Assembly: GCF_021545845.1 (NCBI RefSeq)
Contig: NZ_CP088923.1
Span: 2,418,001 to 2,482,000 of the forward strand
DNA from: Rhodanobacter thiooxydans
Lineage (GTDB): Bacteria > Pseudomonadota > Gammaproteobacteria > Xanthomonadales > Rhodanobacteraceae
Direction of reading: 5' to 3'
DNA: 64,000 bases
Shown here: positions 6,834 through 63,143 of the stretch, piece after piece
Layout of the letters: the number at the start of each line of letters is the position of its first letter
Numbering within the stretch: position 1 is the stretch's first letter
The notes under the pieces: model-generated
Told to the model about the DNA's origin: nothing
The model's input: only the letters and a program-made list of their open reading frames with translations
Database searches by the model: none
Made by a program: the position numbers and the translations under genes

Positions 6834-7160
6834 TCATTCAGCCCCTTGACCGTCGATGGGCCACGCCCGATCCACCGTGCTCTGGTAGACCCAGCCGGCC
6901 ACACTCTGACCGGTGCGCCCGTGCAGGCGGATCAACTGCACCGCCCGTTCGGCCTGATCGTCCTCACAGAACACTTCGAGCTTGATCTGCCGGGTCACCC
7001 GTTCGCCCAGTTCCATCGAATAGACCTGTTCCTGGCCGTTGAGCGCGGTCAGCAGACCTTTGACGTCGCTCACCGACAGGTAACGAAACCCCGCTTCTTC
7101 CAGCGCATGGATGACGTCGACCACGCGGCCACGATGGATGAAGGCCTTCACTTCTTTCAT
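6834..7160 (-). CDS. P-II-like regulatory protein of the czc efflux operon
   Basis: The protein has 108 residues and starts MKEVKAFIHRGRVVDVIHALEEAG, the ferredoxin-like fold start of the P-II/GlnB superfamily. It lacks the classical T-loop uridylylation sequence. Members of this subgroup are found at the end of heavy-metal RND operons and are thought to sense metal or nucleotide and modulate efflux. The ATG overlaps the czcA stop by 4 bp, so production is coupled to the pump. It is the only candidate regulator of any kind in the transposon cargo, and it is not a DNA-binding protein. Confidence 0.8.
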   Translation of the reverse strand: MKEVKAFIHRGRVVDVIHALEEAGFRYLSVSDVKGLLTALNGQEQVYSMELGERVTRQIKLEVFCEDDQAERAVQLIRLHGRTGQSVAGWVYQSTVDRAWPIDGQGAE

Positions 7161-10100
7161 GGGGTCTTCTCCTTGGCGAGGCGCCGGGCGGCGCGTTCTT
7201 CGATCCAGTCGTAGAGCACCGGCAGCAGCACCAGCGTCAGCAAGGTCGAGGTGATCAGACCACCGACCACCACGGTGGCGAGCGGGCGCTGGGTTTCCGC
7301 ACCCACGCCACTGGAGAGCAGCATCGGCACCAGGCCCAGGATCGCTACGCTCGCGGTCATCATCACCGGGCGCATGCGCAGGGCCGTACCGCGGATCACT
7401 GCCTCGCGCACAGGCAAGCCTTTCTCACGTTGTTCGTTCAAGAAACTCACCAGCACGATGCCGTTCAACATCGCCACGCCGAACACCGCGATGAAGCCGA
7501 TGGCCGAGGGTACCGACAGGTATTGCCCGGTGATCGCCAAGCCGACGATGCCGCCGATGGTGGCAAACGGCACGTTGGCCAAGATCAGCGTGGCGTGCTT
7601 CACCGAGTTGAACGCGGTGTAGAGCAAGACAAAGATGAAGAAAATCGTCGCCGGCACGATCAGCGACAATCGCTTCAACGCCCGCTGCTGGTTCTCGAAC
7701 GCGCCGCCCCATTCGCTGTAATAGCCAGTCGGCAACTTCACCTGTTGCGCGATGGCCGCATTGGCTTCCTTGACGAAGCCGTCGATGTCACGACCGCGAA
7801 CATCCATCTGGATCACCGCATAGCGCTGCAGTTGTTCTCGACGAATGAACGAGTAGCCTTCCGCATCGCTGACCTCAGCCACCTGCGACAGCTGCACCAG
7901 TGCGCCGCTGGGCGTGCGGATCGGAATGCGCTTGATCGCCGGCAACGAGGCCTTGTCCGCATCGTCCAGCCGCACGGCGATGTCGAAGCGTTTCACGCCG
8001 TCGAGTAAGGTCGTCACCGGCTCGCCGCCGATGCCGTTCTTCACCACGGTGAGCACGTCGTCGGCGTTCAAGCCGTAACGGGCCAGCGCATCGCGATCCA
8101 CCTTGATGCGGATCTGCGGCTTGCCGATGTTCGCCTCCAGCGCGAGATCGGCGACGCCAGGCACCCCGGCCAACACGTTCTTGATGCGACTGCTCAAGCG
8201 ATCAAGTTCGCCCAGGTCATCGCCATAGATCTTCAGTGCCAGCGTGGCGCGCACACCCGAGATCAGTTCCTCGATGCGCATCTGGATCGGCTGCGTGTAG
8301 CTCACCACCGCGGTGGGCAGCGCCGCCGACAGTTCCTTCTGCATCGCTTCCTCGATGCTTTCCAGCGTCTCGCCCTTGCGCCATTGATCCTTCGGTTTCA
8401 GCGGCGTGTACACCTCCATGTAGTTCACATCCGCCGTTTCGCCTTTTTCGGCGCGACCGATCATCGCCAGCGTGGTTTCCACTTCCGGAAACTTTTGTTT
8501 GACCAGTGTCGACACTTGCTTGGAGATGGCGATCGATTCGTCCAGCGATGCCGACGGAATCGAGGTAATGCGCCACATGATGGCGCCTTCCTTCAGGTTA
8601 GGCATGAACTCCTTGCCGAGGAACGGGAACAGCGCGAGGCTGCCGACCAAGGCTCCGGCGGCGATGCCCAGCACTAGCTTGCGGCGCGCCAGCGCCCAGG
8701 CGAGCACCGTGGCGTAGTGGCGTTTCAGGAACGCCACCAGCCAGGTGTCCTTTTCTTCCTTGGGTTTCAACACCAGCGCGGCGAGCACCGGGATCAGCGT
8801 CAAGGCGAGAATCAGCGAACCGGCCATCGCGAAGCTGATATTGAACGCCATCGGCTTGAACATCTTGCCTTCCAGCCCTTGCAGGCTGAACAGCGGAAGG
8901 AACACCACGATGATGATCCCGATCGCGAACGTCATCGGGTTGGCCACCTCGCGGGCGGCCGCCAGCACAGCCGACGTGCGATCCACTGGGCCGCCATGCG
9001 CCTTGCGCTCGGCCATGATGCGGTAGGCGTTTTCCACCATCACCACGGCGCCGTCCACCATCATGCCGATACCGATCGCCAGGCCCGCCAGCGACATCAG
9101 GTTGGCCGACAGGCCGACCTGATTCATGCAGATGAAGGCGATCAGCATCGCCAACGGCAACGCCACGACGACCACCAGCGCGCTGCGAAACTCACCCAGG
9201 AACAGGAACAGCACCAGTGCCACCAGGATCGAACCTTCCACCAGCGCACGCACCGCGGTGCCCACCGCCGCGTTGACCAGTTCAGTGCGCTCGTACACCG
9301 GTTTTACGACCACGCCCGGCGGCAAGGATTGCTTCACTGTGTCGAGCTTGGCCTTGACCGCATCGACCACGCTCTTGGCGTTCTCGCCAATGCGAGCCAG
9401 CGCTTGGCCCATCACCACTTCCTTGCCATCGCGCGTCACGGCACCGGTGCGGGGCGCACCCGCCTCGGTGATGGTGGCCACGTCACGCACGTAGACCGGC
9501 GTGCCGTCTTCGGTCTTGAGCACGATGTTGCCCAGATCCTTCGCGTTCTGGATCAGGCCCAGTCCACGTACCAGGTACTGCTCGCGGCCGACATCGACGA
9601 AGTTGCCGCCGACTTGCGCGTTGTTGGCCTGCAGCGCCTCGATCACCTCTTTGAAGCCAAGCTTGTGCGCGATCAGTTTCATCGGGTCGATGCGCACCTG
9701 GAACTGCTTTTCCTGGCCGCCCCATGAGCTGACGTCATCGACACCCGGTGCGGTGCGCAGGATCAAACGGATGGTCCAGTCCTGCAGTGTGCGCAGATCC
9801 ATGTCGTTCGGTGCCGTACCGGCCGTGGCGCCTTTCAAGGTGCTGTCGGCGCGTTCGACGGTGTACCAGAACACCTGGCCGAGACCGGAGGTGTTCGGTC
9901 CCATCTCCGGTTTGCCGTAGCCGGCCGGCAAGCGATCGCCCACCTGCTGCAACCGTTCGTTGACCAGCTGGCGAGCGAAGTAGATGTCCATGCTGTCGTC
10001 GAAGTAGACCGACACATAGGACAGCCCGAACAAGCTCACCGAGCGGATCTGCTCCACTTTGGGCAGGCCGGCGAGCGCCGATTCCACCGGCGTGGTGAGG

Positions 10101-14073: not shown

Positions 14074-17000
14074 GGTTGAATCTCCTGGGGTGGATGAAAC
14101 GTCGGGATGGACTGCGCTGCTTTGCGAAGTCGGTACCGCATCAGCAGACGGAACGCCGCCGGCAGCACCAGCATGGTCAGCAGCGTCGCGGTGACCATGC
14201 CGCCGATCATCGGTGCGGCGATGCGCTGCATGACTTCCGAGCCGGCGCCGTGGCCGAGCAAGATCGGCAGCAGGCCAGCGATGATCACCGCCACGGTCAT
14301 CGCCAGCGGCCGCACGCGCTGCGCGGCGCCTTGGCGGATCGCTTCGTCGAGCGCGTCGACACCGGCCTGCGGATCGAGCGCGAGCTGCCGATCCCAGGCG
14401 TGACGCAGGTACAGCAGCATCACCACGCCGAACTCGGCGGCGACGCCGGCCAGCGCGATGAAGCCGATCACCGTGGCTACTGATACCGAATGGCCGAGCA
14501 GCCAGATCAGCCACAGGCCGCCGACCAGCGCCAGCGGCACGTTGGCCATGATGAGCGCCGCCTCACTGGTCCGCCGGAACACCGCATAGATCAGCCCGAA
14601 GATGATCAGCAATGCCACCGGCACCACCAGCTTGAGTCGTTGCGCCGCGCTGGCGAGGTACTGGAACTGCCCCGACCAGTCCAGCGTGACGCCGGGCGGC
14701 AGCGTGACCTGCCGGGCCACCGCGCGCTGCAGCCGGGCGACCACGCCGCCGAGGTTGCTGCTGGCCGTGTCGATGTAGACGTAGGTCGCCAGCTGGCCGT
14801 CCTCGCTCTTCAGCATCGACGGCCCCGCCGCAACGGTGATGTCGGCGACCTGGCTCAACGTGAGCTGGGCGCCGTTCGCAGCCACGATCGGCAGCTGCCG
14901 CAGTGCCTGCACCGAATCGCGGTCCACCCGCGGGTAGCGCACCACGATCGGAAAACGCTCGCGTCCTTCGATGCTCTGGCCAACCGGATCGCCGCCGACC
15001 ACCGTGGCGATCAGCTGCTGCACGGCTTCCTGCGTGAGTCCATAGCGTGCCGCCTCGTCGCGGCGGATATGCACGTCGACATAGCGACCGCTGGTCGGAC
15101 GCTCGGCCACGGCCGAGCTGACCCCGGGCACGGTCTTGGCGACTGCTTCGATGCGATCGGCGACCGTCTGCAGCGTGGTCAGGTCGGTGCCCAGCACCTT
15201 GATGCCGATCGGGCTCTTGATGCCGGTGGAGAGCATGTCGATGCGGTTGCGGATCGGCGGCACGAACAGGTTCGTCAGACCCGGCACATGCACGGCCTGG
15301 TTCAGCGCGGCCTTGATCTTGTCCATCGTCATGCCGGGGCGCCACTCGCTCTTCGGCTTGAACGTGATGGTGGTCTCGAACATCTCCAGCGGCGCCGGAT
15401 CGGTGGCGGTGTCGGCGCGTCCCGCCTTGCCGAACACGTGCGCGACTTCCGGCACGGTCTTGAGCATGCGGTCGGTCAGCTGCAGCAACTGCGCGGCCTT
15501 GCCGGCTGACAACCCGGGCAGTGCGGTGGGCATGTACAGCAGCGTGCCTTCGTCCATCGCGGGCATGAACTCGCTGCCGAGCTGGCTGAGCGGCACCAGT
15601 GCGGTGAGCAGCACCAAGGCGGCCAGCCCCAGCGTGGCCTTCGGAAAACGCAGCACCACGTCGAGGATCGGCCGGTACAGCGCGATCAGGCCGCGATTGA
15701 TCGGATTGGCGTGCTCGGCACGCAGGTGTCCGCGTACCAGGTAGCCCATCAGCACCGGCACCAGGGTCACCGCCAGCCCCGCGGCCGCCGCCATCGCGTA
15801 GGTCTTGGTAAACGCCAGCGGCTTGAACAGCTTGCCCTCCTGGCCTTGCAGCGCGAACACCGGCACGAACGACAGCGCGATGATCAGCAGGCTCACGAAC
15901 AGCGCCGGACCCACTTCCACGGTGGCCTCGGCGATCAGCGCCCAGCGGGCGGCGCCCTGTGGTTCTTGCCCATCGTGCGCGTCGCGCCAATGCTCCAGGT
16001 GCTTGTGGGTGTTCTCGATCATCACGATCGCCGCATCGACCATTGCACCGATCGCGATCGCGATGCCGCCCAGCGACATCAGGTTCGCGGTGACGCCCTG
16101 CAGGTTCATCACGATGAAGGCGGTCAACACGCCCAATGGCAACGTGATCACGGCGACCAGCGCCGAGCGCAGGTGACCGAGGAACAGCGCGCAGACCAGC
16201 GTGACGACGAGAAACTCCTCCAGCAACTTTCGCCAGACGTTCTCCACGGTGGCGTCGATCAGCTGGGAGCGGTCGTAGGTGGGCACGATCTCGACGCCCG
16301 GCGGCAGGCTGCGTTGCAACTGCGCCAGACGCGCCTTCACCGCCGCGATGGTGGCCTTGGCGTTCTGACCCGAGCGCATCACGATGATGCCGCCGACCAC
16401 TTCGCCCTGGCCGTCCAGTTCGGCGAGGCCGCGCCGGAAGGTCGGACCGCGGCGCACCGTCGCCACGTCGCGCAGCCGCACCGGCACGCCGTTCGCGTTG
16501 GCGACGATCGGCACGTTCTCGAAGTCGGCGCGGGTCTTGAGATAGCCCTCGCTGCGCACCATCAGCTCGGCCTCACCCTGCTCGATCACCGAGCCGCCGT
16601 TGGCGCCGTTGGCGGCGCGCACGGCATCAACGAGCTGCGCCACGGTGAGGCCGCGCGCGGCCAGCGCCTGCGGATCGGGCACGATCTGCCAGGCGCGGTC
16701 CATGCCGCCCAGGGTGGCCACCTCGGCGACACCCGGCACGGTTTTCAGCTGGAAGCGCAGGTTCCAGTTTTGCAGCGCGGTGAGCTGGCCGATGTCGTGT
16801 CGACCGGTGCGGTCGACCAGCGCGTATTCGTAGATCCAGCCCAGCCCGGTGGCATCCGGACCCAGTGCGGGATTGACGCCGGCCGGCAGTCGATCGCGCG
16901 CCTGGCTCAAATATTCCAGCACGCGTGAGCGTGCCCAGTAGAGGTCGGTGCTGTCGCTGAACAACACATCCACGTAGGAGTCGCCGAAGAACGAATACGC

Positions 17001-51176: not shown

Positions 51177-51335
51177 ATGAACAACAAGTCGAGCAAGTTT
51201 TCCCCTGGGTTCCTGCAGAAAGCAGCTAGTCGGCACGCGCATGCTCATCGATACGCTTGCTCGCGTCGTTACTACCAGTATCTCCCTGACGCCGCGGCAG
51301 AACAGCGCATGTCTGAGGGCCTGAATCCTTTTTGA
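51177..51335 (+). pseudogene. possible IS3-family orfA remnant
   Basis: The 52-codon frame begins MNNKSSKFSP, like the start of IS3-family OrfA proteins (MNxKSSKFSPEVRERAVRMV), then diverges at once. It is probably the broken left end of an insertion sequence. The evidence is only about ten residues. Confidence 0.3.
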
Positions 51336-51505
51336 CCATAGTCAAATGCGTATGCGGCGCAGCGGCTTACCGTGGCATCGTGGAGTCGGAAAGCCGCCAG
51401 CACAGTGCGATGCGCAACCGTCATCGCCTGACGTCAGCCCGAGTGACCACTCCTTCCGCCGGGCACGGCGAGCCTGCGGATCAAACGCTGTCATAGGAGG
51501 CGCTC

Positions 51506-51809: not shown

Positions 51810-52019
51810 ATGCCGCATGCGCCGTCCCATGGCTGCGGCCTGTGGTTCCTCGTCGCCCCCATCACCTTGGTGCTGTACCCGATGATGCTCGTCGCCTACG
51901 TGCGTCTCGCACGTCGGGAGGAGCGTGACAGCTTCGCTCGCTTCGGCCCGAGGTACGCCGCGTATATGCTGGACGTGCCCGATTTCCTTCCCCTCCGCTC
52001 GCACGCCACACAGACGTAG
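51810..52019 (+). pseudogene. C-terminal piece of an isoprenylcysteine methyltransferase-like protein
   Basis: The 69-codon frame reads GLWFLVAPITLVLYPMMLVA, then YVRLARREERDSFARFGPRYAAYM, which matches the conserved C-terminal end of ICMT-type membrane methyltransferases (the YxxLARREE...RFGxxYxxY region). The first three or four membrane segments and the SAM-binding part are absent. Either it is a decayed gene or a recycled small membrane protein. It starts 2 bp after the DUF2933 stop. Confidence 0.55.
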
Positions 52020-52045: not shown

Positions 52046-54502
52046 ATGACCGGTCAAGACCCCGGGCAACGCGGAAGCGCTGGTGATTTGCATGCGCTTG
52101 TTGGTCCCGTCGAAGCGAGCACCCACACTATGGATGCCCACGCGCCCTCCAGCCGCAGTCACGCCTGGCCCATCGGCGGAATGGTGAGTGCTGGCTGCGC
52201 CCGCACGCTGGAGCAGACGATTGCCCAGCTGCCGGGTGTGCGTGCGGCCGATGCCAGCTTCGCCGCATCACGGTTGAAGGTCGACTACGACCCGGCGCAG
52301 GTAGATGCCAGCCGAATTGCCGAGGCGATCCGGCGCTGTGGCTTCGAGTGCGCCACGAACGGTCACCGTGACGTTGCGCATGCGCATGACGGCCACGCGC
52401 ATGCGCACCACCACGCGCACGCGGACGAGACGGGCCGGGAGCAGCCAGCCGCGGGCTCGCATGCCGATCACGCCGCGGATGCAGGCGACGCCCATGCCGG
52501 CATGCACCACGGCGGTGACCTGCACGCGGCGGCACGGGACATGCGCCGCCGTTTCCTGGTCGCATTGGCGTTCGCGATCCCGGTATTCCTGTGGTCGCCG
52601 ATGGGGTTGATGCAACCGCTGCCGGTGCCTTTCGGCCTCGATAAAAACGTCTGGCTGTTCCTGCTCGCCTCGGGTGCGGTGCTGTATCCAGGCTGGCCGT
52701 TCTTCACCGCGGCAATCCGCTCGTTGCGCCATGGCGTGCTCGACATGTCCGTACTGGTGCTGCTCAGCGTAGGCACGGGCTACGGGTTCAGCATTGCGTC
52801 GACCTTCTTCTTCGAAGGCCCGAACTTCTACGAGGCTTCCGCGGTCCTGCTGACTTTCATCCTGCTGGGCCATTGGCTGGAGATGCGGGCCCGGGCCGGT
52901 GCCTCGGATGCGATGAGGGCGCTGCTCAAATTGTCTCCGCCCCGTGCGATCGTGCGGCGCGACGGACAGGATCTCGAGGTGGCCACCGCCGAGGTCCGGG
53001 CCGGCGACGTAGTGGTCGTCCGTCCCGGGGCCAAAGTGCCGGTGGATGGGACGGTACTTGAGGGTAGTTCGCAAGTTGACGAGTCCATGCTGACCGGCGA
53101 GTCGATGCCGGTTCGCAAGGACCCGGGTGCCACGGTGGTCGGCGGTTCGATCAACAAGAGTGGCGCCTTCGCCTACACCGCCACCAAGGTTGGCGGCGAC
53201 ACGGCGCTGGCGCAGATCATCAAGCTGGTGCAGGACGCGCAGAACTCCAAGGCTCCTGCGCAGTTGCTCGCCGATCGGGCCTCGCAGTGGCTGGTGCTGG
53301 CGGCGATCGTGATCGGTGTAGCGACTTTCGTCGTGTGGTACTGGTGGCTGGACCAGTCCTTGCTGTTCGCGCTCACGCTGACCATCACGGTCTTCGTCAT
53401 CGCCTGCCCCGACGCCCTCGGGCTGGCGACGCCGATGGCGATCATGATCGGCACCGGCCTGGGTGCGCGTCACGGCATCCTGTTCAAGCATGCCGAAGCG
53501 ATCGAGCTGAGCGCGCGGCTGGACGTGGTGATCTTCGACAAGACCGGTACGCTCACCGTCGGCCAGCCGGAGGTGGTCGACCTGGCGACGGCCCCTGGCT
53601 GGACACCCGAACGCCTGCTTGCCGCCGCCGCGGCGGTCGAGGTGCATTCCGAGCACCCGCTTGCCCAGGCCATCCTGAAACGTGCGGGCGCGGTGCCGAC
53701 GCGCGCGACGGCATTCACCAACATCGACGGCCAGGGCGCCACCGGCGTGGTCGACGGGGCGCAGGTGCTGCTCGGCAACCGCCTGCTGATGGCCGAACAC
53801 GGCGTGGACCTGGGTGGACTGGAGGCGGACGCGGCACGACTCACCGGCGCCGGCCGAACGGTGATCTTCGTCGGCGTCGATGGCCAGCTCGCCGGTCTCA
53901 TCGCGATCGCCGATGCGATCCGCGAGAGTTCGCGCGCAGCCATCGAGGAGCTGCATCGGCGCAACGTCAAGGTCGCGATGATCACCGGCGACAATCGGCC
54001 CACCGCCGAGCGCGTGGCCCGCGACCTTGGCATCGATATCGTGCTCGCCGACGTGCTGCCCGCAGGCAAGGCCGACGAGGTGAGAAAGCTGCAGGCGCAG
54101 GGCCAGAAGGTCGGCATGGTGGGCGATGGGGTGAACGACGCCCCTGCGCTGACCCAGGCTGAGGTCGGTTTCGCCATCGGCGCCGGCACCGACGTGGCGA
54201 TCGAAAGTGCCGACATCGTGCTGATGCGCAGCGACCCTTACGATGTAGTTCGCGCGGTCACCATTGCCCGCGCGACCTTGCGCAAGATGCACCAGAACCT
54301 GGCCTGGGCGGTCGGCTACAACGTGGTCGCCTTCCCGCTCGCGGCCGGCGTGCTCTACCCGTTCACGCTGTCGCCGGAGATCGCGGCGCTGTCGATGTCC
54401 GGCAGCTCGGTGATCGTCGCGGTCAACGCATTGATGCTGCGCCGCGTCCGCCTGGCGCCACGCTCGGGCGACACCTCCCCATCCCAAAAGGCAGCGACCT
54501 GA
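52046..54502 (+). CDS. P1B-type heavy-metal ATPase with CPD motif
   Basis: An 818-residue protein. Its N-terminal HMA-like domain has the metal motif degenerate: GMVSAGC (45-51), with Ser for the first Cys of GMxCxxC. A His-rich linker (HAHDGHAHAHHHAHAD) follows. Eight membrane segments are predicted. The transmembrane metal motif is C454-P455-D456 where copper pumps have CPC or CPH. TGES, DKTGT (498-502), the SEHP-type HSEHPLAQ and GDGVNDAP are intact, so it should hydrolyse ATP. Close P1B-3-like context suggests copper export, but the Asp leaves the substrate open. RBS AAGGAG. Confidence 0.9.
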   Translation: MTGQDPGQRGSAGDLHALVGPVEASTHTMDAHAPSSRSHAWPIGGMVSAGCARTLEQTIAQLPGVRAADASFAASRLKVDYDPAQVDASRIAEAIRRCGFECATNGHRDVAHAHDGHAHAHHHAHADETGREQPAAGSHADHAADAGDAHAGMHHGGDLHAAARDMRRRFLVALAFAIPVFLWSPMGLMQPLPVPFGLDKNVWLFLLASGAVLYPGWPFFTAAIRSLRHGVLDMSVLVLLSVGTGYGFSIASTFFFEGPNFYEASAVLLTFILLGHWLEMRARAGASDAMRALLKLSPPRAIVRRDGQDLEVATAEVRAGDVVVVRPGAKVPVDGTVLEGSSQVDESMLTGESMPVRKDPGATVVGGSINKSGAFAYTATKVGGDTALAQIIKLVQDAQNSKAPAQLLADRASQWLVLAAIVIGVATFVVWYWWLDQSLLFALTLTITVFVIACPDALGLATPMAIMIGTGLGARHGILFKHAEAIELSARLDVVIFDKTGTLTVGQPEVVDLATAPGWTPERLLAAAAAVEVHSEHPLAQAILKRAGAVPTRATAFTNIDGQGATGVVDGAQVLLGNRLLMAEHGVDLGGLEADAARLTGAGRTVIFVGVDGQLAGLIAIADAIRESSRAAIEELHRRNVKVAMITGDNRPTAERVARDLGIDIVLADVLPAGKADEVRKLQAQGQKVGMVGDGVNDAPALTQAEVGFAIGAGTDVAIESADIVLMRSDPYDVVRAVTIARATLRKMHQNLAWAVGYNVVAFPLAAGVLYPFTLSPEIAALSMSGSSVIVAVNALMLRRVRLAPRSGDTSPSQKAAT

Positions 54503-54538: not shown

Positions 54539-55924
54539 ATGAACAACGCTACCGATTCCACCTTGCAGTTCCTCGGCGCCGCCGGCACGGTCACCGGCTC
54601 GCGTTACCTGATCGAAGCCGGCGGCCATCGCGTGCTGGTCGACTGCGGGCTGTTTCAGGGGTACAAGCAGCTGCGCGAGCGCAACTGGGCGCCGTTCCCG
54701 GTCGCGCCGGACTCGATCGATGCAGTCGTGCTCACCCACGCCCACCTGGATCATTCCGGCTATCTGCCGGCGCTGGTCAGACAGGGATTCCGCGGCACGA
54801 TCCATTGCACCACAGGCAGCGTCGCGCTGTGCGGCCTGCTCCTGCCGGACAGCGGGCACCTGCTGGAGGAGGAGGCGAAATACGCGGCACGCAAGGGCTA
54901 CTCGAAGCACGCCAAGCCGCTGCCGCTCTACACGAAGGAGGACGCGGAGCGCAGTCTGCGGCAGCTGCACGGCCACGACTACGAGCGGGACGTGGAGGTC
55001 GTAGCTGGCATCCGGGCGCGCTTCTACCCCGCGGGGCACATCCTCGGCGCCGCCCATGTCAGCCTCGACGTGCACGGCCGGCGCCTGCACTTCAGCGGCG
55101 ACCTCGGCCGGCAGCACGAGTCGCTGATGAATCCGCCTACGCCGCTGCCTGCCTGCGACGTACTGGTCTGCGAGTCCACCTACGGCAACCGCGCGCATGT
55201 CCCGATCGACCAGGAGGCGGAACTCGCGCCCATCGTGCGGCGGGTCGCCGCACGCGGCGGGGTGATCGTGATCCCGGCCTTCGCGGTGGGTCGCGCCCAG
55301 GCGCTGATGTTGCACCTGGCGCGGTTGCGGCAACGAAACGAGATCCCTCCGGTCCCCGTCTTCCTCAACAGCCCCATGGCGGTGGATGCAACGCGCCTTT
55401 ACCACGAGCACCACGCCGAGCACCACGTATCCGACGAGGACTGCCGCCGCATGTACGAGATCGCCACGTTCGTCAACAGCGTCGAGGAGTCGAAAGCGCT
55501 CAACCGCCGGCGCGAGCCGATGATCATCATCTCCGCCAGCGGCATGGCCACCGGTGGGCGCGTGTTGCACCACATCGAAGCGTTCGGTCCCGACGATCGC
55601 AACGCGATCGTGCTCTCCGGCTACCAGGCCGGCGGCACCCGCGGCGCGGCGCTCGCTGGCGGTGCGCACACCTTGCGCATGTTTGGCCGGGAAGTGCCGA
55701 TCCGCGCCGAAGTCATACCGCTGGCCGGGTTCTCCGGGCACGCCGACGCGAACGAACTGCTGGCGTGGATGCGGACCACGCCATCCGCTCCGGAGATGGT
55801 CTACGTTACCCATGGCGAACCGGATGCCTCCGACACCCTTCGCGCGCGCATCGAGCACGAGCTTGGGTGGCATGCGCGCGCACCGGAACACATGGAGCGC
55901 GTTTCGCTGGAGGGCGCGAACTGA
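54539..55924 (+). CDS. beta-CASP metallo-beta-lactamase-fold hydrolase
   Basis: A 461-residue protein with the zinc motif HAHLDHSG, a later SGDLGR, the CPSF/beta-CASP signatures CESTYGNRAH and IISASGMATGGRVLHH, and a C-terminal RMMBL-type end (GFSGHADANELLAWM ... YVTHGEPDAS). Relatives are RNA endo/exonucleases of the CPSF73/YSH1 group. It lies in the phosphoketolase operon, 1 bp before the AMP-phosphorylase-like gene. A role in RNA turnover feeding nucleotides to its neighbours is an attractive inference. Confidence 0.88.
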   Translation: MNNATDSTLQFLGAAGTVTGSRYLIEAGGHRVLVDCGLFQGYKQLRERNWAPFPVAPDSIDAVVLTHAHLDHSGYLPALVRQGFRGTIHCTTGSVALCGLLLPDSGHLLEEEAKYAARKGYSKHAKPLPLYTKEDAERSLRQLHGHDYERDVEVVAGIRARFYPAGHILGAAHVSLDVHGRRLHFSGDLGRQHESLMNPPTPLPACDVLVCESTYGNRAHVPIDQEAELAPIVRRVAARGGVIVIPAFAVGRAQALMLHLARLRQRNEIPPVPVFLNSPMAVDATRLYHEHHAEHHVSDEDCRRMYEIATFVNSVEESKALNRRREPMIIISASGMATGGRVLHHIEAFGPDDRNAIVLSGYQAGGTRGAALAGGAHTLRMFGREVPIRAEVIPLAGFSGHADANELLAWMRTTPSAPEMVYVTHGEPDASDTLRARIEHELGWHARAPEHMERVSLEGAN

Positions 55925-55925
55925 C

Positions 55926-57440
55926 ATGGACGCATCCTCCCCTGCTCGCCTGCGCGTGATCCGTGCCGGCATCGACACCTACCAGCAGCCGGTGGTGTAC
56001 ATGCACAGGGACTGCGAGGTCTGCCGCTCCGAAGGCTTCGCGGCGGTGACCCGCGTGCAGATGGATATCGGGGGGCGCACGCTGATCGCGACCCTGAACG
56101 TCGTGGTCGGCGACCTGGTCACCGTCGACGAAGTGGCCCTGTCGGAGGCCGCCTGGCAGGTCCTGGCCCCCGCTCCCGGCGCGCTGGCCAGCTTCCGCCA
56201 CCCGGAACCGGCGGCCTCGGCTGGCGCACTGCGGGCCAAGGTATTTGACGCACGGCTGGATGATGCACAGTTCCTGGCGCTGATGGAGGACACGGTCGCA
56301 AGCCGCCTGTCCGACCTGGAACTGGCAGCGTTCGTCACGGCTTGTGCGGGCGAGCGCCTCGATCCGGACGAAAGCACCTCGCTGACGCGGGCAATGGTCG
56401 CGGTCGGTCAGCGGCTCGACTGGGGCGGCGGCCTGGTGCTGGACAAGCACTGCGTCGGTGGCTTGCCGGGCAACCGCACGACACCCATCGTGGTGGCGAT
56501 CATCGCCGCGCTGGGCTACCGCATCCCGAAGACGTCTTCGCGCGCGATCACTTCCCCTGCGGGCACCGCGGACACCATGGAAGTGATGGCGCCGGTCGCC
56601 CTCGACCTGCCGGCCATGCGCCGGGTGGTCGAGCAGGAAGGCGGTTGCATCGTCTGGGGTGGCAACGTGCGCCTGAGTCCTGCCGACGACATCCTGATCC
56701 GGGTCGAGCGTCCGTTGGATTTCGACAGCGACGGCCAACTGGTCGCCAGCGTGCTGTCCAAGAAGGTTGCCGCCGGCTCGACCCACGTCTTGATCGACAT
56801 GCCGATCGGACCGACTGCCAAGGTGCGCAGTGACGCCGCGGCCGCCCGCCTGACCGCCCGCCTGGTCAGCACGGCGAGCGCGCTGGGCGTGTCGTTGGGT
56901 GTGCATCGCTCCGACGGCACGCAGCCGGTCGGTGTCGGAATCGGCCCGGCGCTGGAAGCACACGACGTGCTTCGCGTGCTGCGCAACGCGCCGGACGCGC
57001 CGGCAGACCTGCGCGATCGCGCCATCGCGCTCGCGGGTGCGCTGCTCGACCTCGTGCCCGGCAGCATCACGGGCAGCGGGGAAGCCCGCGCTCGCGCGAC
57101 GTTGCAGTCCGGCCAGGCGTTGGCGAAATTCCTGGCGATCTGCGAGGCGCAGGGAGGCTTCCGCGAACCGCCACGCGCGCCGTACACCGCAGACGTGGCG
57201 GCTGGTGCGGACGGCCGGATCGCCGCGATCGATAATCGCCGGCTGGCGCGCATCGCGAAGCTCGCCGGTGCGCCCGTCTCAGCCGCCGCCGGCCTGGAGA
57301 CTGCATGGCGCGTCGGCGACCTGGTAGCGCGCGGGCAGCCGCTGTTCACCGTGCACGCACAATCGCGCGGGGAACTGGCCTACGCGCTGGAATACGCCGC
57401 GTCGACCACCCCATTCGACATCGTCAGGGAGACGGTATGA
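55926..57440 (+). CDS. AMP phosphorylase / thymidine phosphorylase family protein
   Basis: The ATG at 55926 gives 504 residues, matching archaeal-type AMP phosphorylase (about 500) rather than DeoA (about 440); the extra length is an N-terminal domain of about 80 residues. Catalytic and phosphate-binding motifs are LVLDKHCVGGLPGNRTT, SSRAITSPAGTADTMEV and GGNVRLSPADDI. Archaeal enzymes convert AMP and phosphate to adenine and ribose-1,5-bisphosphate. The stop overlaps the PRPP-synthetase-like start by 4 bp. Confidence 0.87.
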   Translation: MDASSPARLRVIRAGIDTYQQPVVYMHRDCEVCRSEGFAAVTRVQMDIGGRTLIATLNVVVGDLVTVDEVALSEAAWQVLAPAPGALASFRHPEPAASAGALRAKVFDARLDDAQFLALMEDTVASRLSDLELAAFVTACAGERLDPDESTSLTRAMVAVGQRLDWGGGLVLDKHCVGGLPGNRTTPIVVAIIAALGYRIPKTSSRAITSPAGTADTMEVMAPVALDLPAMRRVVEQEGGCIVWGGNVRLSPADDILIRVERPLDFDSDGQLVASVLSKKVAAGSTHVLIDMPIGPTAKVRSDAAAARLTARLVSTASALGVSLGVHRSDGTQPVGVGIGPALEAHDVLRVLRNAPDAPADLRDRAIALAGALLDLVPGSITGSGEARARATLQSGQALAKFLAICEAQGGFREPPRAPYTADVAAGADGRIAAIDNRRLARIAKLAGAPVSAAAGLETAWRVGDLVARGQPLFTVHAQSRGELAYALEYAASTTPFDIVRETV

Positions 57441-58348
57441 ACCGGGTACTGATCCCCTTCCCCGCCAATGCCGCGCTGGCAGCCACCATCGCGCCGACGC
57501 TGCGGGCGCGCCTCGCGCCGCTGGCCTGGCGCCACTTTCCGGATGGCGAGTCGCTGGTCGCGCTCGATGACGACCTGCAGGGCGCCGACGTCGTCCTCCT
57601 CGCCAGCCTGCACGATCCGGATTCTCTTGCCCTGCCGCTGCGTTTCGCCGCGCAAACCGCCCGTGAATTCGGCGCGCGCTCGGTCGGACTGGTTGCCCCC
57701 TACCTGGGATACATGCGCCAGGACACCCGCTTCCACCGTGGCGAGGCCATCAGCGCGCGGCTGTTCGCGCGTTTCCTTGAGGAAGCCTTCGACTGGCTGG
57801 TGACGGTCGATCCCCATCTGCACCGGTATCCGCGACTCGACGCGCTATACCGGATTCCCGTCCGCCAAGTTTCGGCCACGCCGGCCGTGGCAGGCTGGAT
57901 CGCGCGGGAGGTGCCCGATGCCATGCTGATCGGGCCGGACAGTGAGAGCGAACAATGGGTGGCGGGCATCGCCGCACAGGCCCACCTGCCTTACCAGGTG
58001 CTCAGCAAGGAGCGGCATGGCGACTACGACGTACGCGTCAGCCTGCCCGATGCCACTGCCGCGAACGGCCGCACGCCGGTGCTGGTGGACGACATCGTTT
58101 CGTCGGGCCATACCCTCCTGGAAACGCTCAAGCACCTACAGCGGCTGGGACTGCCAGCGCCGGTGCTGGTCGCCATCCATCCGGTGTTCGCGGGCGACGC
58201 CTATGCGCGGTTACAGTCCGCGGGCCTGGTGCGCATCGTCAGCACCGACACCATCGCGCACGCATCCAATACCATTCCCATGGGCGACGCGCTGGCAGTA
58301 GCGGTGTCCGAGCTGATGGCGCGGGGTCTGACCCAGGGGGCTCCATGA
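57437..58348 (+). CDS. ribose-phosphate pyrophosphokinase-like protein
   Basis: A 303-residue protein. The N-terminal half has the ATP-binding loop region (GLVAPYLGYMRQDTRFHRGEAIS). The C-terminal half has the PRPP loop VLVDDIVSSGHTLLETL and GPDSESEQW. It is shorter and more divergent than housekeeping Prs. It makes PRPP from ribose-5-phosphate and ATP, or may run in reverse or on another phosphoribosyl substrate in this operon. Both ends overlap neighbours by 4 bp. Confidence 0.85.
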   Translation: MNRVLIPFPANAALAATIAPTLRARLAPLAWRHFPDGESLVALDDDLQGADVVLLASLHDPDSLALPLRFAAQTAREFGARSVGLVAPYLGYMRQDTRFHRGEAISARLFARFLEEAFDWLVTVDPHLHRYPRLDALYRIPVRQVSATPAVAGWIAREVPDAMLIGPDSESEQWVAGIAAQAHLPYQVLSKERHGDYDVRVSLPDATAANGRTPVLVDDIVSSGHTLLETLKHLQRLGLPAPVLVAIHPVFAGDAYARLQSAGLVRIVSTDTIAHASNTIPMGDALAVAVSELMARGLTQGAP

Positions 58349-60800
58349 ATTTGCATTTCACTTGTTGCACTGCCGACCAGCTTCCCCCTGCCGACCGCCA
58401 GCGCATCGAACAGTTGGCGGCTGCGCATAGGCAGGCCGACGCTGACTTCGCCGACTGGGCCGCGGGCTATGGCGTGATCCGGCACGACGCACTCACCCAG
58501 GTGCGGGTCCGCGAAATGGTGGCCGAACGCGTCGTGCTGGGCCGGCTCGCCGACGCGGCGACGGGTTGGCGCCGGCTCGCAGCCGCCGACCGCCTCGCGA
58601 GCGCCGGGATGTGGCTGGTCGTGCATATGACCTACGCTCGCCGCATGCGCACCGATGGCGGCGCGCTGGAGGCGGACGACTTCAAGGCGACCCCGGAAGG
58701 CCACACCGGCGGGTCGCTCAACATGGTGCCGGCGTACACGGCCTATCTGCTGATGGATGCCCTCGATGGCGTGACCCGCGCCTGGATGATGGGCCAGGGA
58801 TATTGCGTGGCCGCCATCGACGCGCTCAATCTGCTGGTCGGCAACATGACCGACGCGCACGCCGCGCGCTACGACCGCAGCGACGCCGGGCTGAGCCGCT
58901 TCGCCAGCGACTTCTACGCCTACACCCTCAATCCGGACGGCACGCAGCGTCGCCGCTCGGTTCGCACGTCAACGCGCACACCGCCGGTGGCGTGCTGGAA
59001 GGCGGTTACCTGGGCTTCGCGGAACTGCAGTACGTGCACGCGCCGCTCAAGGGCGAGCGCCTGGTCGCCTTCCTCAGCGACGGCGCCTTCGAGGAGCAAC
59101 GCGGCAGCGACTGGGCGCCGCGCTGGTGGCGCGCCGAGGACAGCGGGCTGGTCAGCCCCATCATCATCCTCAACGGCCGCCGTATCGAGCAGCGCAGCCA
59201 GCAGGGTGGCGAGCGCTGGCTGGACCGGCACCTGCGCCTTAACGGATTTGATCCGATATCCCTGGACGGCCGTGATCCGGCCAGCATCGCCTGGGGCATC
59301 CACGTGATGGAGGCGCGCCTGCAGGCACCCGGCGAGTCGCACGATCGTGGGGTCGTGCTTCCCTACGGCATCGCTGAGACAGTCAAAGGCTACGGGTTCC
59401 CCGGCGCGGGGACCAATACCGCGCACAACCTGCCGTTGCCGGGCAACCCGTCGCAGGACGAACCAGCGCGGGCCCTCTTCAACGAGGGCGCGGCGGCGCT
59501 GTTCGTGCCCCGGACCGAACTCGATCAGGCTCTCGCCGCCCTCGATACCCACCAGACCCAGCAGCGGATGCGCGAACGCGACCACGCACTGGCGACGCGC
59601 CAAGTTCCGCCACCACGGGTTCCGCCCATCGCGGACCGCGCGCCCGGCGGCACGAGCTCGCCGATGCAGGCGCTGGATGCGCAGTTCACGTCGATCGCCG
59701 AAGCCAATCCGCAACTGCGCGTGTGCGTGGGTAATCCCGACGAGCTGCGCAGCAACAAGCTCGACCGCACCCTCGACACCCTCAAGCATCGGGTGCAGGA
59801 GCCCGAGCAGGGCGTCGCGGAGTCGACCACCGGCGCGGTCATCACCGCGCTCAACGAAGAAGCGGTGATGTGCGCCGCGCTCGGCAACAAGGACGGGCTC
59901 AACCTGGTCGTCACCTACGAGGCCTTCGCGCCGAAGATGCTCGGCGCGGTGCGCCAGGAACTGATCTTCTCGCGCCATCTCCGTCAGGCCGGGCGTCCAC
60001 CTGGTTGGCTCGGCGTGCCGCTCGTGTTGACTTCGCACACCTGGGAAAACGCCAAGAACGAGCAATCGCATCAGGATCCCACCATGGCCGAGGCGTTGCT
60101 CGGCGAAATGGCGGATGTTTCACGCGTGGTCTTCCCGCCCGACTCGAACGGCGCCGCTGCCGCGCTGGCGCATGCCTATGCGCAGCTGGGTACCGTCACC
60201 GCGCTGGTCGTGCCCAAGCGCTCCGTGCCAGACGTGTTGACGCCGGACCAGGCGCACAATTTGGCGGAAGCAGGCGCAGTGCATCTGGCCGGAGATCCAC
60301 ACGGTGCGCAACTGATGCTCGTTGCCACCGGCGCCTACCAGCTACAGGAAATCCTGCGTGCGTATGAACGTCTGTCGGCGCACGATGTGCCGACCACGGT
60401 GGTTTACCTCGGGGAGCCAGCACGGTTCCGTGCGCCGCGCGACCCGGATGAATCGACTTACGTGCAGCCTGCCGCCTTCGTCCACGAATTGTTTCCACCC
60501 ACGATGCCGCGGGTTTTCCTGACCCATACCCGTCCCGAGCCCTTCCTGGGCGTGTTGCGCCCCCTGGATCTTGGCCCGGCGACGACGGTGGCGCTTGGCT
60601 TCATCAATTGCGGCGGCACGCTGGATGTGCCCGGCTTGTTGTTCGCCAACCGCAGCACTTGGGCGCATGTGGTCGATGCGGCGGCACGCGTACTTGAGCG
60701 CGCCACCGAGGAGTTGCTGACCGTCGACGAACGTACAGCACTGGACGGGCGCGGGAATTCCGCAACGATCATCGCCATCCGGCATGGGGCGCGTCCGTGA
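58345..60800 (+). pseudogene. phosphoketolase with a one-base frameshift
   Basis: Codons 1-201 run from the ATG at 58345 (58345-58947) and contain HTGGSLNMVPAYTAYL and GYCVAAIDALNLL. The remaining about 617 codons are in another frame from 58947 (ASPLGSHVNAHTAGGVLEGG) to 60800. The joined length of about 818 is normal for phosphoketolase, and NPDGTQ/ASPLGSH would be seamless if one base were added at 58947/58948. Phosphoketolase splits xylulose-5-P or fructose-6-P to acetyl-phosphate and a sugar phosphate using TPP. Either a real mutation or a sequencing deletion explains the break. Confidence 0.88.
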
Positions 60801-61081
60801 CGAGTGCCGATCCGGGCATGGGCAAGCGCATCGACTTGTTGTCGATCGCGGGCGCCGCGCCGGGCGCGCTTTTCGCGCGCGCGCTACTTTCGCTGGCGTA
60901 TCCGCTGTCAGGAATCGGGCTCCTCGTCCAACGCCTCGGCATGCGCGCACGCGATCGTGTAGATTCGCGGGGCGGCCCGCTGCCACTCGGCTGGCGCGTG
61001 CTCTATGGCGTGTGCCGGGTCGCCATCGATGCGCTGCCAGTGGCGGCCACGGTGCAGCAGCTGTCGATTGGGGGGCAGTAA
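60797..61081 (+). CDS. 94-residue protein of unknown function
   Basis: A GTG start overlaps the phosphoketolase stop by 4 bp. The product has two amphipathic or weakly hydrophobic segments (IAGAAPGALFARALLSLAYP and WRVLYGVCRVAIDALPVAAT). It ends in TAATG shared with the kinase-like gene. I do not recognise the family; the coupling implies a real gene working with its neighbours. Confidence 0.6.
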   Translation: MTSADPGMGKRIDLLSIAGAAPGALFARALLSLAYPLSGIGLLVQRLGMRARDRVDSRGGPLPLGWRVLYGVCRVAIDALPVAATVQQLSIGGQ

Positions 61082-62673
61082 TGCAGGGAACCTTTGGGCG
61101 TGGCATGCAGATCGCGTGGGCCGGCCTCGGCCTGGCCTGGGATGCGCTGCGTTGGCGGCGTCGCGCACCGGAGCGCTTGCCGGAATGCGTTCGCGTGACG
61201 CTCACTCGCCTGGGCACGACCTTCATCAAGCTCGGCCAGGGGTTGAGCCTGCGCTGGGATCTACTCCCCGCGGCCTATCGCGAAGCGCTGTCGCACCTGC
61301 ACAGCGACGTGCCCCCGTTCCCATCGTCGCAGGCCGCCGCAGCGATCGATGCCGCATTCGGACAGCCACTGTCGTCCCTGTTCTCGGAATTTGATCCGAA
61401 CCCGCTCGCCGCCGCCTCGGTCGCGCAAATCCATCGCGCGCGCCTGCACGATGGCCGTGAGGTCGTGGTCAAGATCACCCGCCCAGGAATCCAGGCCCAG
61501 GTTCATGCCGACCTACGCCTGCTCAGGCGCACGGCTCGCATCGCCCAGGTCGTCTGGCCGCCGCTGCGACGCCAGCGTCCGGTGGAGCTGGTCGACGAGC
61601 TCTCGCAGTTCATGCACGCCGAAATCGACATGCGCCACGAGGCGCAGAACATGCGGCGCATGGCGCCCGTGCTCGACCCGTTACCCGACGTCACCTTGCC
61701 CCACGTCATCGAGCCCTTCGCCGCGCGCGAGGTGCTGGTGCAGGAAATGAGTCACGGACAGCGGTTGGAAGCCTACTACAGGACGCCGCAGGCGCCTGCG
61801 CTCGCCATTGCGCTTCTCGACGCCTATCTCCACCAGTTGTTCATCGCAGGCGTGTTCCACGCCGACCCACATCCGGGCAACCTCTTCGTGCTCGACGACG
61901 GCCGCCTGTGTTTCCATGACTTTGGTTCAATTGGCGTGCTTGATCCGGGCGCACGGCTCGCTCTCGGCAGCCTGGTGGAGGCGGTCGTCGCCAATGACGG
62001 CGCCGATGTGCTCGATGCGGCCATCGCATTGGGATTCTTCGGTCCCCACATCGAACGGCGCGATCATGAGCGTGAAATCCACCTGATCCTTTCAGAATTG
62101 GTCGGTCGGCCGCTCGCCCAATGGTCGGTGGCCGAGGCGATCTGGCGCGTCGCGCGGATCGGCCATGGCGCGAGCTTCCGCCTGCCCGCCCATCTGCTGG
62201 TGCTCATGCGCACGCTGTTCCTCGTCGAGAACACGCTGCGCGCGCTGGATCCACAATTCGACATGCTCGGCACGCTGGCGCGTCGCGCGCCGGAGATCGC
62301 GACTGCCATCGACGACGCCAGCCACACGGGCCAGCGTCCACTCGCAGCGCAGTTTGCACGCACGGCACGGCAATTGCCGCAACTGGCAGCCGACTTGCTG
62401 CGCCAGGCGCAACTCAATGGCGGACGGCCCGCATTCACCATCCACCACCGCGGCTTGGTATCCACACAGGAAGCGATCGGCCGCACCGGTAATCGGCTCG
62501 CACTGGCGCTGGTCACGCTGGGTCTGTACGTAAGTGGTTCACTGCTGACGCTCCATGGCGACGGCCCGCGGATGTTCGGCCACCTGCCAGTGCTCTCCGT
62601 CATCGCTTTCGTAGCTGCCGCCGTGCTGTCGTTGCGCCTGATCATCGGTATCAGCCGCTCGGGACACCTGTGA
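61081..62673 (+). CDS. ABC1/UbiB-family atypical kinase-like protein
   Basis: The ATG at 61081 gives 530 residues. Family motifs are the KxGQ loop (KLGQGLSLRWDLLP), ASVAQIH, the EIDMRHEAQN motif, HADPHPGNLF and HDFGSIG. Two C-terminal membrane segments end the protein (LALALVTLGLYVSGSL, VLSVIAFVAAAVLSLRLI). This is a UbiB-like architecture. UbiB supports coenzyme Q synthesis; here, in a phosphoketolase operon, the role is probably different and unknown. Confidence 0.88.
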   Translation: MQGTFGRGMQIAWAGLGLAWDALRWRRRAPERLPECVRVTLTRLGTTFIKLGQGLSLRWDLLPAAYREALSHLHSDVPPFPSSQAAAAIDAAFGQPLSSLFSEFDPNPLAAASVAQIHRARLHDGREVVVKITRPGIQAQVHADLRLLRRTARIAQVVWPPLRRQRPVELVDELSQFMHAEIDMRHEAQNMRRMAPVLDPLPDVTLPHVIEPFAAREVLVQEMSHGQRLEAYYRTPQAPALAIALLDAYLHQLFIAGVFHADPHPGNLFVLDDGRLCFHDFGSIGVLDPGARLALGSLVEAVVANDGADVLDAAIALGFFGPHIERRDHEREIHLILSELVGRPLAQWSVAEAIWRVARIGHGASFRLPAHLLVLMRTLFLVENTLRALDPQFDMLGTLARRAPEIATAIDDASHTGQRPLAAQFARTARQLPQLAADLLRQAQLNGGRPAFTIHHRGLVSTQEAIGRTGNRLALALVTLGLYVSGSLLTLHGDGPRMFGHLPVLSVIAFVAAAVLSLRLIIGISRSGHL

Positions 62674-63143
62674 GCGACCTGCGTCTGCTCGCGCCCAGCT
62701 TGGGCTCCGCGACCCTCAAGGCTGCGACTTACCACCTCGCTCGATCCGATCACGCAGACGCGGCACACCTGAGCAAGCCGGCCCGCATCGAAACTCCGAT
62801 CCAAGGAGGTGCAGACCAACCTTTCGACGCACTGCTGCAGGGGCTGCCGACGGACGGGCATGTACCGGATGTCGTTGTGCACCGGATCGTTCATGGGGGA
62901 GACCTGGCGCACGGCTGCGAACTCGATGATGTCCCGCTCGCGCAATTGGATGCACTCGCGATGCTGGCACCGCCGCACCAACCAGCGGCGTTCGCCCTGG
63001 CGAGGGAGACACGCATGCGCTGGCCGGCGGCGCGGCACGGGGTGGCGTTCGACACGAGCTTCCACGCCACGCTTGCGCAGCTGCTGGCCGCAACGCGGAC
63101 CGTGTCAACCCCGACGCAGCCTGCATCGGTGGAACCCGCGTGA
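62670..63143 (+). pseudogene. N-terminal acetate-kinase-like fragment
   Basis: A GTG start coupled to the kinase gene gives 157 residues with recognisable AckA landmarks: GSATLK for the GSSSLK loop, VVHRIVHGG, LAPPHQPAAF for LAPLHNP, and GVAFDTSFH. The catalytic Asn near the N-terminus is not seen. The C-terminal half of about 240 residues, including the ATP site, is missing. It is therefore either a decayed acetate kinase or a half-domain protein. An acetate kinase beside phosphoketolase is expected, because it turns acetyl-phosphate into ATP. Confidence 0.7.

Follow-up and report, generated by a model that had tools for sequence, protein, structure and literature searches.

What do a metallo-beta-lactamase (MBL)-fold nuclease-like protein, a long protein of the thymidine phosphorylase family, a protein resembling phosphoribosyl pyrophosphate (PRPP) synthetase (Prs) and a phosphoketolase do together at positions 54539..60800 of the stretch analysed here? 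This stretch, called the window below, covers 64,000 nucleotides (C1:2418001-2482000) of the 4.2-Mb genome of Rhodanobacter thiooxydans, and positions are window positions unless C1 is given. The answer favored here is a low-oxygen emergency route from ribonucleotides to ATP; in outline, with enzyme activities and flux direction predicted, its chances are put a little short of even. The fuller proposal is that the family NF005537, to which the Prs-like protein belongs, is a new AMP-dependent ribose 1,5-bisphosphate (R15P) phosphotransferase (R15P + AMP giving ribose 5-phosphate (R5P) + ADP), which together with a bacterial nucleoside monophosphate (NMP) phosphorylase and phosphoketolase forms a mobile, oxygen-controlled pathway fermenting the cell's own RNA. 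This larger claim is tentative and less likely than not.

The long phosphorylase and its partners

The phosphorylase (55926..57440, plus strand) is a proposed NMP (AMP) phosphorylase. It passes the cut-off of NF003338, the long thymidine phosphorylase subfamily (631.2 bits, cut-off 434), and stays below the DeoA and PYNP cut-offs (NF004490, 173.4 against 269 bits; TIGR02644, 167.2 against 409.05; TIGR02643, 123.5 against 570.7). An earlier note, made from the sequence alone, had called it an AMP phosphorylase of archaeal length. This description is supported by the 504 residues, by the nearest PDB entry, which is the T. kodakarensis AMP phosphorylase, and by the architecture, in which an N-terminal domain precedes the core and the structural match runs over the full length, as in the archaeal enzyme. 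It is also supported by most of the discriminating residues, a set selected by the authors rather than a published signature: P181, N183, a basic residue at 184, T203, S205, A207-S210, A215, W244, E261-R262, P293, K299, G331 and P341 are as in T. kodakarensis, and each is kept by 39 or more of the 41 bacterial phosphorylases compared and is not shared with L002/PYNP. At most of these positions the protein thus resembles AMP phosphorylase over DeoA/PYNP. The description does not hold for the archaeal family model, TIGR03327, where the score of 424.5 bits falls short of the cut-off of 535, nor for K174 (41/41) and D330 (33/41), which agree with DeoA/PYNP and not with T. kodakarensis. The last two residues suit ordinary (deoxy)nucleoside salvage, in which a thymidine phosphorylase would work with a PRPP synthetase while the other genes hitch-hike on a metal or hypoxia island. 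The name thymidine phosphorylase, carried by NF003338 and by plasmid records, suits it too. However, this alternative is unlikely: it sits poorly with the majority of discriminating residues, and the genome has a second, shorter NF003338 match at C1:3214976-3216220.

The closest companion of the phosphorylase is the Prs-like protein. In a profile search of 398 Pseudomonadota genomes, NF003338 passed its cut-off in 44 and NF005537 in 40, and both did so in 39, where the frequencies of the two would predict 4.4 (Fisher p 2.4e-47, uncorrected for kinship); the pairing is far above chance. Matches to NF003338, NF005537 or PhnN below the cut-offs, seen in most genomes, were treated as ordinary relatives of the models. 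A single genome (G383) carries NF005537 without NF003338, and five carry NF003338 without NF005537 over cut-off. Among the latter, G285 has an adjacent Prs-like protein of 299.6 bits, and in G392, G382, G308 and G249, which have no Prs-like protein over cut-off, a single open frame encodes the phosphorylase together with a PhnN that passes its cut-off. In a second sample of 200 genomes from the class of G392, NF003338 was found in 28, accompanied by a Prs-like protein over cut-off in 12 (on another contig in G607), by PhnN in three (sharing its frame in G392 and in G510, lying head-to-head with it in G598), and by neither partner in 13. Over both samples, PhnN and phosphorylase share a single open frame in five genomes, none with a Prs-like protein over cut-off. 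The 69 phosphorylase genomes combined comprise 50 with the Prs-like protein (including G285; adjacency to the phosphorylase was not established genome by genome among these) and six with PhnN fused or adjacent, and no genome falls in both groups. The thirteen genomes with neither of these partners (L224-L236) belong to the class of G392, and several of them are small.

PhnN is a ribose-1,5-bisphosphokinase by family description, and because of this the product of the phosphorylase is likely R15P; a phosphorylase fused to PhnN most likely makes or uses this compound. PhnN acts on R15P, as is proposed for the Prs-like protein, but it is of another family, uses ATP, makes PRPP and is absent from the window. 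Fusions are found at L080:7470-10430 and in L081, L084, L085 and L238; two were scanned, and both cut-offs were passed in each. The gene nadC adjoins the fusion over cut-off in L080, L081 and L085, and by eye in L238, so that a separate unit for base exchange of nicotinamide or nicotinate mononucleotide (NMN/NaMN) is possible. In none of the 44 and none of the 28 phosphorylase-bearing genomes (69 in all) did a match to R15P isomerase (TIGR00511) reach the cut-off; the genome of the window reaches 181.9 bits, compared with a cut-off of 314.1.

The Prs-like protein (57437..58348, plus strand) was rightly described in the earlier note as similar to PRPP synthetase: it is assigned to NF005537, its predicted fold is that of Prs, and the catalytic residues are present. 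In 111 sequences of the family, which include near copies and 70 of the 72 named-locus matches (those above 100 bits), R94, Q95, D96, H127, D168, E170, K191, R193, D219 and T226 are invariant, and D218 is found in 110. The catalytic Lys/Arg, the His and the R5P loop of Prs are therefore all kept in the family. The Gly-Gly pair that follows the Asp in the pyrophosphate-holding loop of Prs is not. At each of its two positions Gly is present in 17 of 20 canonical Prs picks (about three of the 20 look like poor frames, and all were kept), whereas the Prs-like family has E170 in 111/111 and S171 in 108/111. The canonical PDxGG thus becomes PDxES; in addition, W174 replaces a canonical Arg and an HxHR motif appears. 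A loss of basic residues after RQD looked like a further family trait in 41 sequences and was undone by the 111 (R98 in 71; K/R at 97 in 56).

The exchange of Gly-Gly for Glu-Ser makes diphosphate binding less likely, and this bears on two other readings of the protein. In the version of the earlier note, an ordinary PRPP synthetase runs in reverse, turning PRPP and AMP into R5P and ATP. The conserved Prs residues and the predicted fold agree with this, but the Gly-Gly position is Glu throughout and no other recognized gene in the run makes PRPP; an NMP phosphorylase would yield R15P, so that the PRPP step becomes unnecessary. This version is very unlikely. A better placed though still rather unlikely reading is PRPP regeneration, in which the phosphorylase converts NMP to R15P and the Prs-like protein, like PhnN, converts R15P to PRPP, to be used in base exchange or in making NAD; phosphoketolase and acetate kinase would then be separate co-regulated fermentation genes. 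The replacement of the Prs-like protein by PRPP-forming PhnN in the fusions, the adjoining nadC, and the many loci with phosphorylase and Prs-like protein but no phosphoketolase all speak for it. Against it stand the Glu-Ser pair and the closely packed TP-ACK-XFP-PRS order of L137 and L138 (TP, phosphorylase; ACK, acetate kinase; XFP, phosphoketolase; PRS, Prs-like protein), which points to a demand for R5P and not PRPP. The reaction preferred here, R15P + AMP giving R5P + ADP, is a tentative assignment, less likely than not to be right in this exact form.

The gene run and its damaged local copy

The run extends beyond 54539..60800 on a single strand: a P-type ATPase lies upstream of this span, and a small open reading frame (ORF), a UbiB-like kinase and a piece of an acetate kinase follow it. 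Its first member in the span, the MBL-fold protein (54539..55924, plus strand), is a probable ribonuclease: the Beta-Casp (PF10996), RMMBL (PF07521) and MBL (PF00753) domains are over cut-off, the score to TTHA0252 is 264.3 bits, and the motifs THAHLDH, PAGH, SGDLG and SGHAD, which include the MBL metal motifs, are present. The earlier naming of a beta-CASP nuclease-like protein is thereby upheld. The stop-start overlaps described in the same note are confirmed at the phosphorylase/Prs-like and Prs-like/phosphoketolase junctions (four bases, ATGA) but not between the beta-CASP protein and the phosphorylase, where there is a one-base gap; the ATPase and the beta-CASP gene are 36 bases apart. 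From the phosphorylase to the end of the run, gene neighbors overlap by one or four bases.

The phosphoketolase assigned by the earlier note belongs to the family PF03894, but it occupies two frames, a feature that had gone unnoticed, as had the acetate kinase fragment. An N-terminal piece (58345..58944, plus strand) is followed by a C-terminal piece with the XFP domain (58947..60800, plus strand), and comparison with relatives places the frame shift between 58944 and 58947; this gene has no intact reading frame. Both pieces share one frame in all 19 named loci that have both, several of which are near copies of one another, and in six of six further loci, two of which (L208 and L216) probably duplicate L109 and L111. 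The break is either a real lesion or a sequencing error. The acetate kinase fragment (62670..63143, plus strand, 157 residues) matches residues 1-142 of the 362-residue enzyme of L110. Because of the frame break and the reduction of acetate kinase to an N-terminal fragment, the window copy of the cluster looks decayed and partly broken, and fuller copies occur in the same genus. In L214 and L217, whose phosphorylase match is 84% identical, the order is ICMT-ATPase-MBL-TP-PRS-XFP-small-UbiB-AckA, a single frame holds both phosphoketolase pieces, and acetate kinase is matched over residues 6-361. The ICMT-like gene, full length in relatives, is a remnant of 46 residues in the window (51861..51998, plus strand; 54-61% identity to residues 164-209 of proteins of 220-221 residues; PF04140 on L114). 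About 100 kb away, the same genome carries a second phosphoketolase domain (C1:2580304-2580834, inside an open frame of 814 residues) and a second acetate kinase (C1:2578350-2579489, matched over 1-391 of 392).

The remaining genes of the run are a heavy-metal P1B-type ATPase (52046..54502, plus strand; family scan), in which the motif reads CPD where CPC is usual; a small ORF of 94 residues matching no family (60797..61081, plus strand), whose counterpart at this position in L110, an ORF of 113 residues, shows 45% identity to it over a stretch of 76; and the UbiB/ABC1-like kinase (61081..62673, plus strand; family scan). Upstream of the module the window contains a Tn3-family transposase (PF01526; 41208-44309, plus strand) and a replication initiation factor (PF02486; 49038-50075, minus strand); replication initiation factors of the latter type occur in filamentous phages. 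Two further regions on the minus strand (7160-9598 and 14082-16589), resistance-nodulation-division (RND) pumps by appearance, are 37-53% identical to genes flanking the module in Luteimonas and Lysobacter relatives.

The wider distribution was drawn from at least 585 confirmed stretches, of which the best 80 named loci (51-81% identical) were searched by tblastn over both strands and the full locus, with matches accepted at E up to 1e-8. Among these best 80, the Prs-like protein is matched in 72, the MBL protein in 55, the P-type ATPase in 46, the C-terminal part of phosphoketolase in 22 and UbiB in 19; acetate kinase, searched in these 80 and in 45 unnamed loci, is matched in 14 of the 125. 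Both phosphoketolase and acetate kinase are thus minority companions of the phosphorylase and the Prs-like protein. Some loci are near copies (L112/L113; L125/L126; L140/L143/L145/L147/L148/L150), and ORF-based maps of gene order miss some genes found by tblastn in GC-rich loci because of wrong frames or strand, such as the Prs-like gene in L110 and L144. The type II glyceraldehyde-3-phosphate dehydrogenase (GAPDH) family occurs in eight of the 80, always on the same strand; six of these are near copies of one island, and one member was scanned. This archaeal-type enzyme is seen near the module in Pseudomonadota at L172:9539-10603, in L222 and at L223:17217-18260, and a plasmid, too, carries it alongside ppk2 and a hydroxyacid dehydrogenase. 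Across whole genomes, phosphoketolase is mildly commoner with the phosphorylase (15/44 genomes) than without it (48/354), in a count made by eye and uncorrected for kinship.

Gene order varies among the loci: TP-ACK-XFP-PRS, PRS-XFP-MBL-TP, XFP-TP-PRS, TP-PRS-XFP-ACK and, in L222, MBL-TP-PRS-XFP-ACK-GAPDH2. In L135 acetate kinase follows the phosphorylase, and the start of the phosphoketolase, together with a 25% match, points to another type of this enzyme. Phosphorylase, Prs-like and MBL genes, and sometimes phosphoketolase, stay together despite these differing orders, and the variation therefore suggests a common function rather than hitch-hiking, which counts against ordinary salvage. The frequent P-type ATPase and transporter neighbors and the patchy, plasmid-borne distribution are what that alternative would lead one to expect. 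The module is indeed patchy and partly mobile. Locus titles include Rhodanobacter, Lysobacter, Luteimonas, Mesorhizobium, Rhodobacteraceae, Alcanivorax, Ralstonia, Achromobacter, Legionella and Flavobacterium; within the genus, 12 of 36 genomes, the present one included, pass the phosphorylase cut-off. Among 72,556 plasmid records, 113 carry a phosphorylase match (E 1e-60), and 46 of these 113 are typed as conjugative. On the Acidovorax plasmid p1-T1, one strand carries within 18 kb ppk2, a P-type ATPase, an MBL protein, a thymidine phosphorylase family protein, Prs, a hydroxyacid dehydrogenase, UbiB and type II GAPDH; no phosphoketolase is annotated in this 18-kb stretch. A link to the Burkholderia lxa locus was considered and dropped, as a count of words in the lxa papers found by the literature search gave zero for thymidine phosphorylase and for phosphoketolase.

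Probable low-oxygen control

The window contains one TTGAN6TCAA match, an FNR/ANR/FixK-type box (TTGACCATAGTCAA, 51332..51345, listed without strand). By itself this is weak: chance gives a mean of 0.35 per window, and at least one match appeared in 30 of 100 shuffles. Across the 80 named loci (1.28 Mb), TTGAYN4RTCAA occurs 33 times, whereas 11 permuted half-sites occur 0-6 times (mean 2.5). One or more boxes are present in 11 of 15 nearer loci and missing from the other four. In L210, L211, L213 and L218 a box precedes the phosphorylase match by 122-194 bases, and in L214 and L217 one stands some 0.4 kb ahead of the first gene. A box directly upstream is not universal, being absent from many of the 45 unnamed loci.

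Gene sets with like names have been recorded under low oxygen in Bradyrhizobium diazoefficiens. One study gives bll3117, bll3115, bll2518 and bll2517 in FixK2-box units, with these four down 6.6- to 30.6-fold in a fixK2 mutant at 0.5% oxygen, and names bll3116 inside the predicted operon (PMC9104804). A microoxia table elsewhere includes bll3115, bll3116, bll3117 and bll2518 (PMC6515984). Compared by product name, bll3117-bll3116-bll3115 (thymidine phosphorylase family, Prs, MBL) and bll2518-bll2517 (phosphoketolase, acetate kinase) resemble the present cluster, as does their FixK2-box control at low oxygen. They differ in forming two separate units where the window has one run, and the available parts of these sources assign them no biochemical role.

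A proposed route from ribonucleotides to ATP

Under the reading preferred here, FNR/FixK-type regulators would turn the cluster on, as suggested by the boxes and the Bradyrhizobium FixK2 data. The beta-CASP protein would cut RNA and, with other RNases, supply NMPs. The long phosphorylase would then convert AMP, perhaps also CMP and UMP, with phosphate to the free base and R15P, an NMP phosphorolysis proposed from its family, its residues and the PhnN fusions. The Prs-like protein would take R15P to R5P by Prs chemistry one phosphate short, with AMP most likely accepting the phosphate; such a reaction would keep the energy of the glycosidic bond as ADP, remove AMP and draw adenylate kinase toward ATP. 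Housekeeping isomerases would lead on to xylulose-5-phosphate, which phosphoketolase would split into acetyl-phosphate and glyceraldehyde-3-phosphate. Acetate kinase would yield ATP, and in some relatives the neighboring type II GAPDH would use the triose. In the present genome both local genes for this last stage, phosphoketolase and acetate kinase, are damaged, and a second pair is located about 100 kb away. The RNA-to-energy route of the earlier note thus gains from the residues, the PhnN fusions and the presence of phosphoketolase, acetate kinase and GAPDH beside the phosphorylase in a minority of relatives, and loses from the damage to the local genes.

Several points weigh against this route, in addition to the missed archaeal cut-off, the two DeoA-like residues and the broken local copy. 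All the enzyme activities are predicted from families, linkage and residues. NMPs would not be expected from a beta-CASP RNase acting alone, and both phosphorolysis and the transfer from R15P to ADP are unfavorable at standard state. Phosphoketolase and acetate kinase are near the phosphorylase in few loci, and phosphorylase and Prs-like protein alone are found in many. Thirteen of the 69 phosphorylase genomes have neither partner, and among the first 44 there are nine that have the Prs-like protein and also carry a PhnN over cut-off elsewhere. By analogy with PhnN, which makes PRPP, the Prs-like protein may make it too. Matches to TIGR00511 below cut-off, presumed to be other members of the superfamily, are found in 23/44 and 12/28 genomes (best 138-187 bits). 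Finally, the membership of bll3116 in NF005537 is presumed.

The nearest known system is the archaeal pentose bisphosphate pathway of NMP/AMP phosphorylase, R15P isomerase and form III RuBisCO, as described for T. kodakarensis (PMC9700705). The bacterial cluster shares with it a homologous long phosphorylase, the proposed entry from NMP to R15P and the passage of nucleotide ribose into central metabolism. It differs in that none of the 69 genomes reaches the cut-off for R15P isomerase, most of them carry a Prs-like or PhnN partner instead, and phosphoketolase and acetate kinase lie beside the phosphorylase in some. The earlier statement that no bacterial pathway with this exact set was known to its author agrees with a literature search, leaving out subscription papers and preprints, in which no account was found; it needs the qualification that like-named gene sets are already listed among the FixK2 and microoxia genes of Bradyrhizobium.

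If the proposal is true, many bacteria, some of them by way of plasmids, would possess a second route of AMP phosphorolysis beside the archaeal one, and RNA would serve them as an ATP reserve under anoxia. The unexplained FixK2/microoxia gene set would gain a role, and the names thymidine phosphorylase and Prs would be corrected in many annotations.

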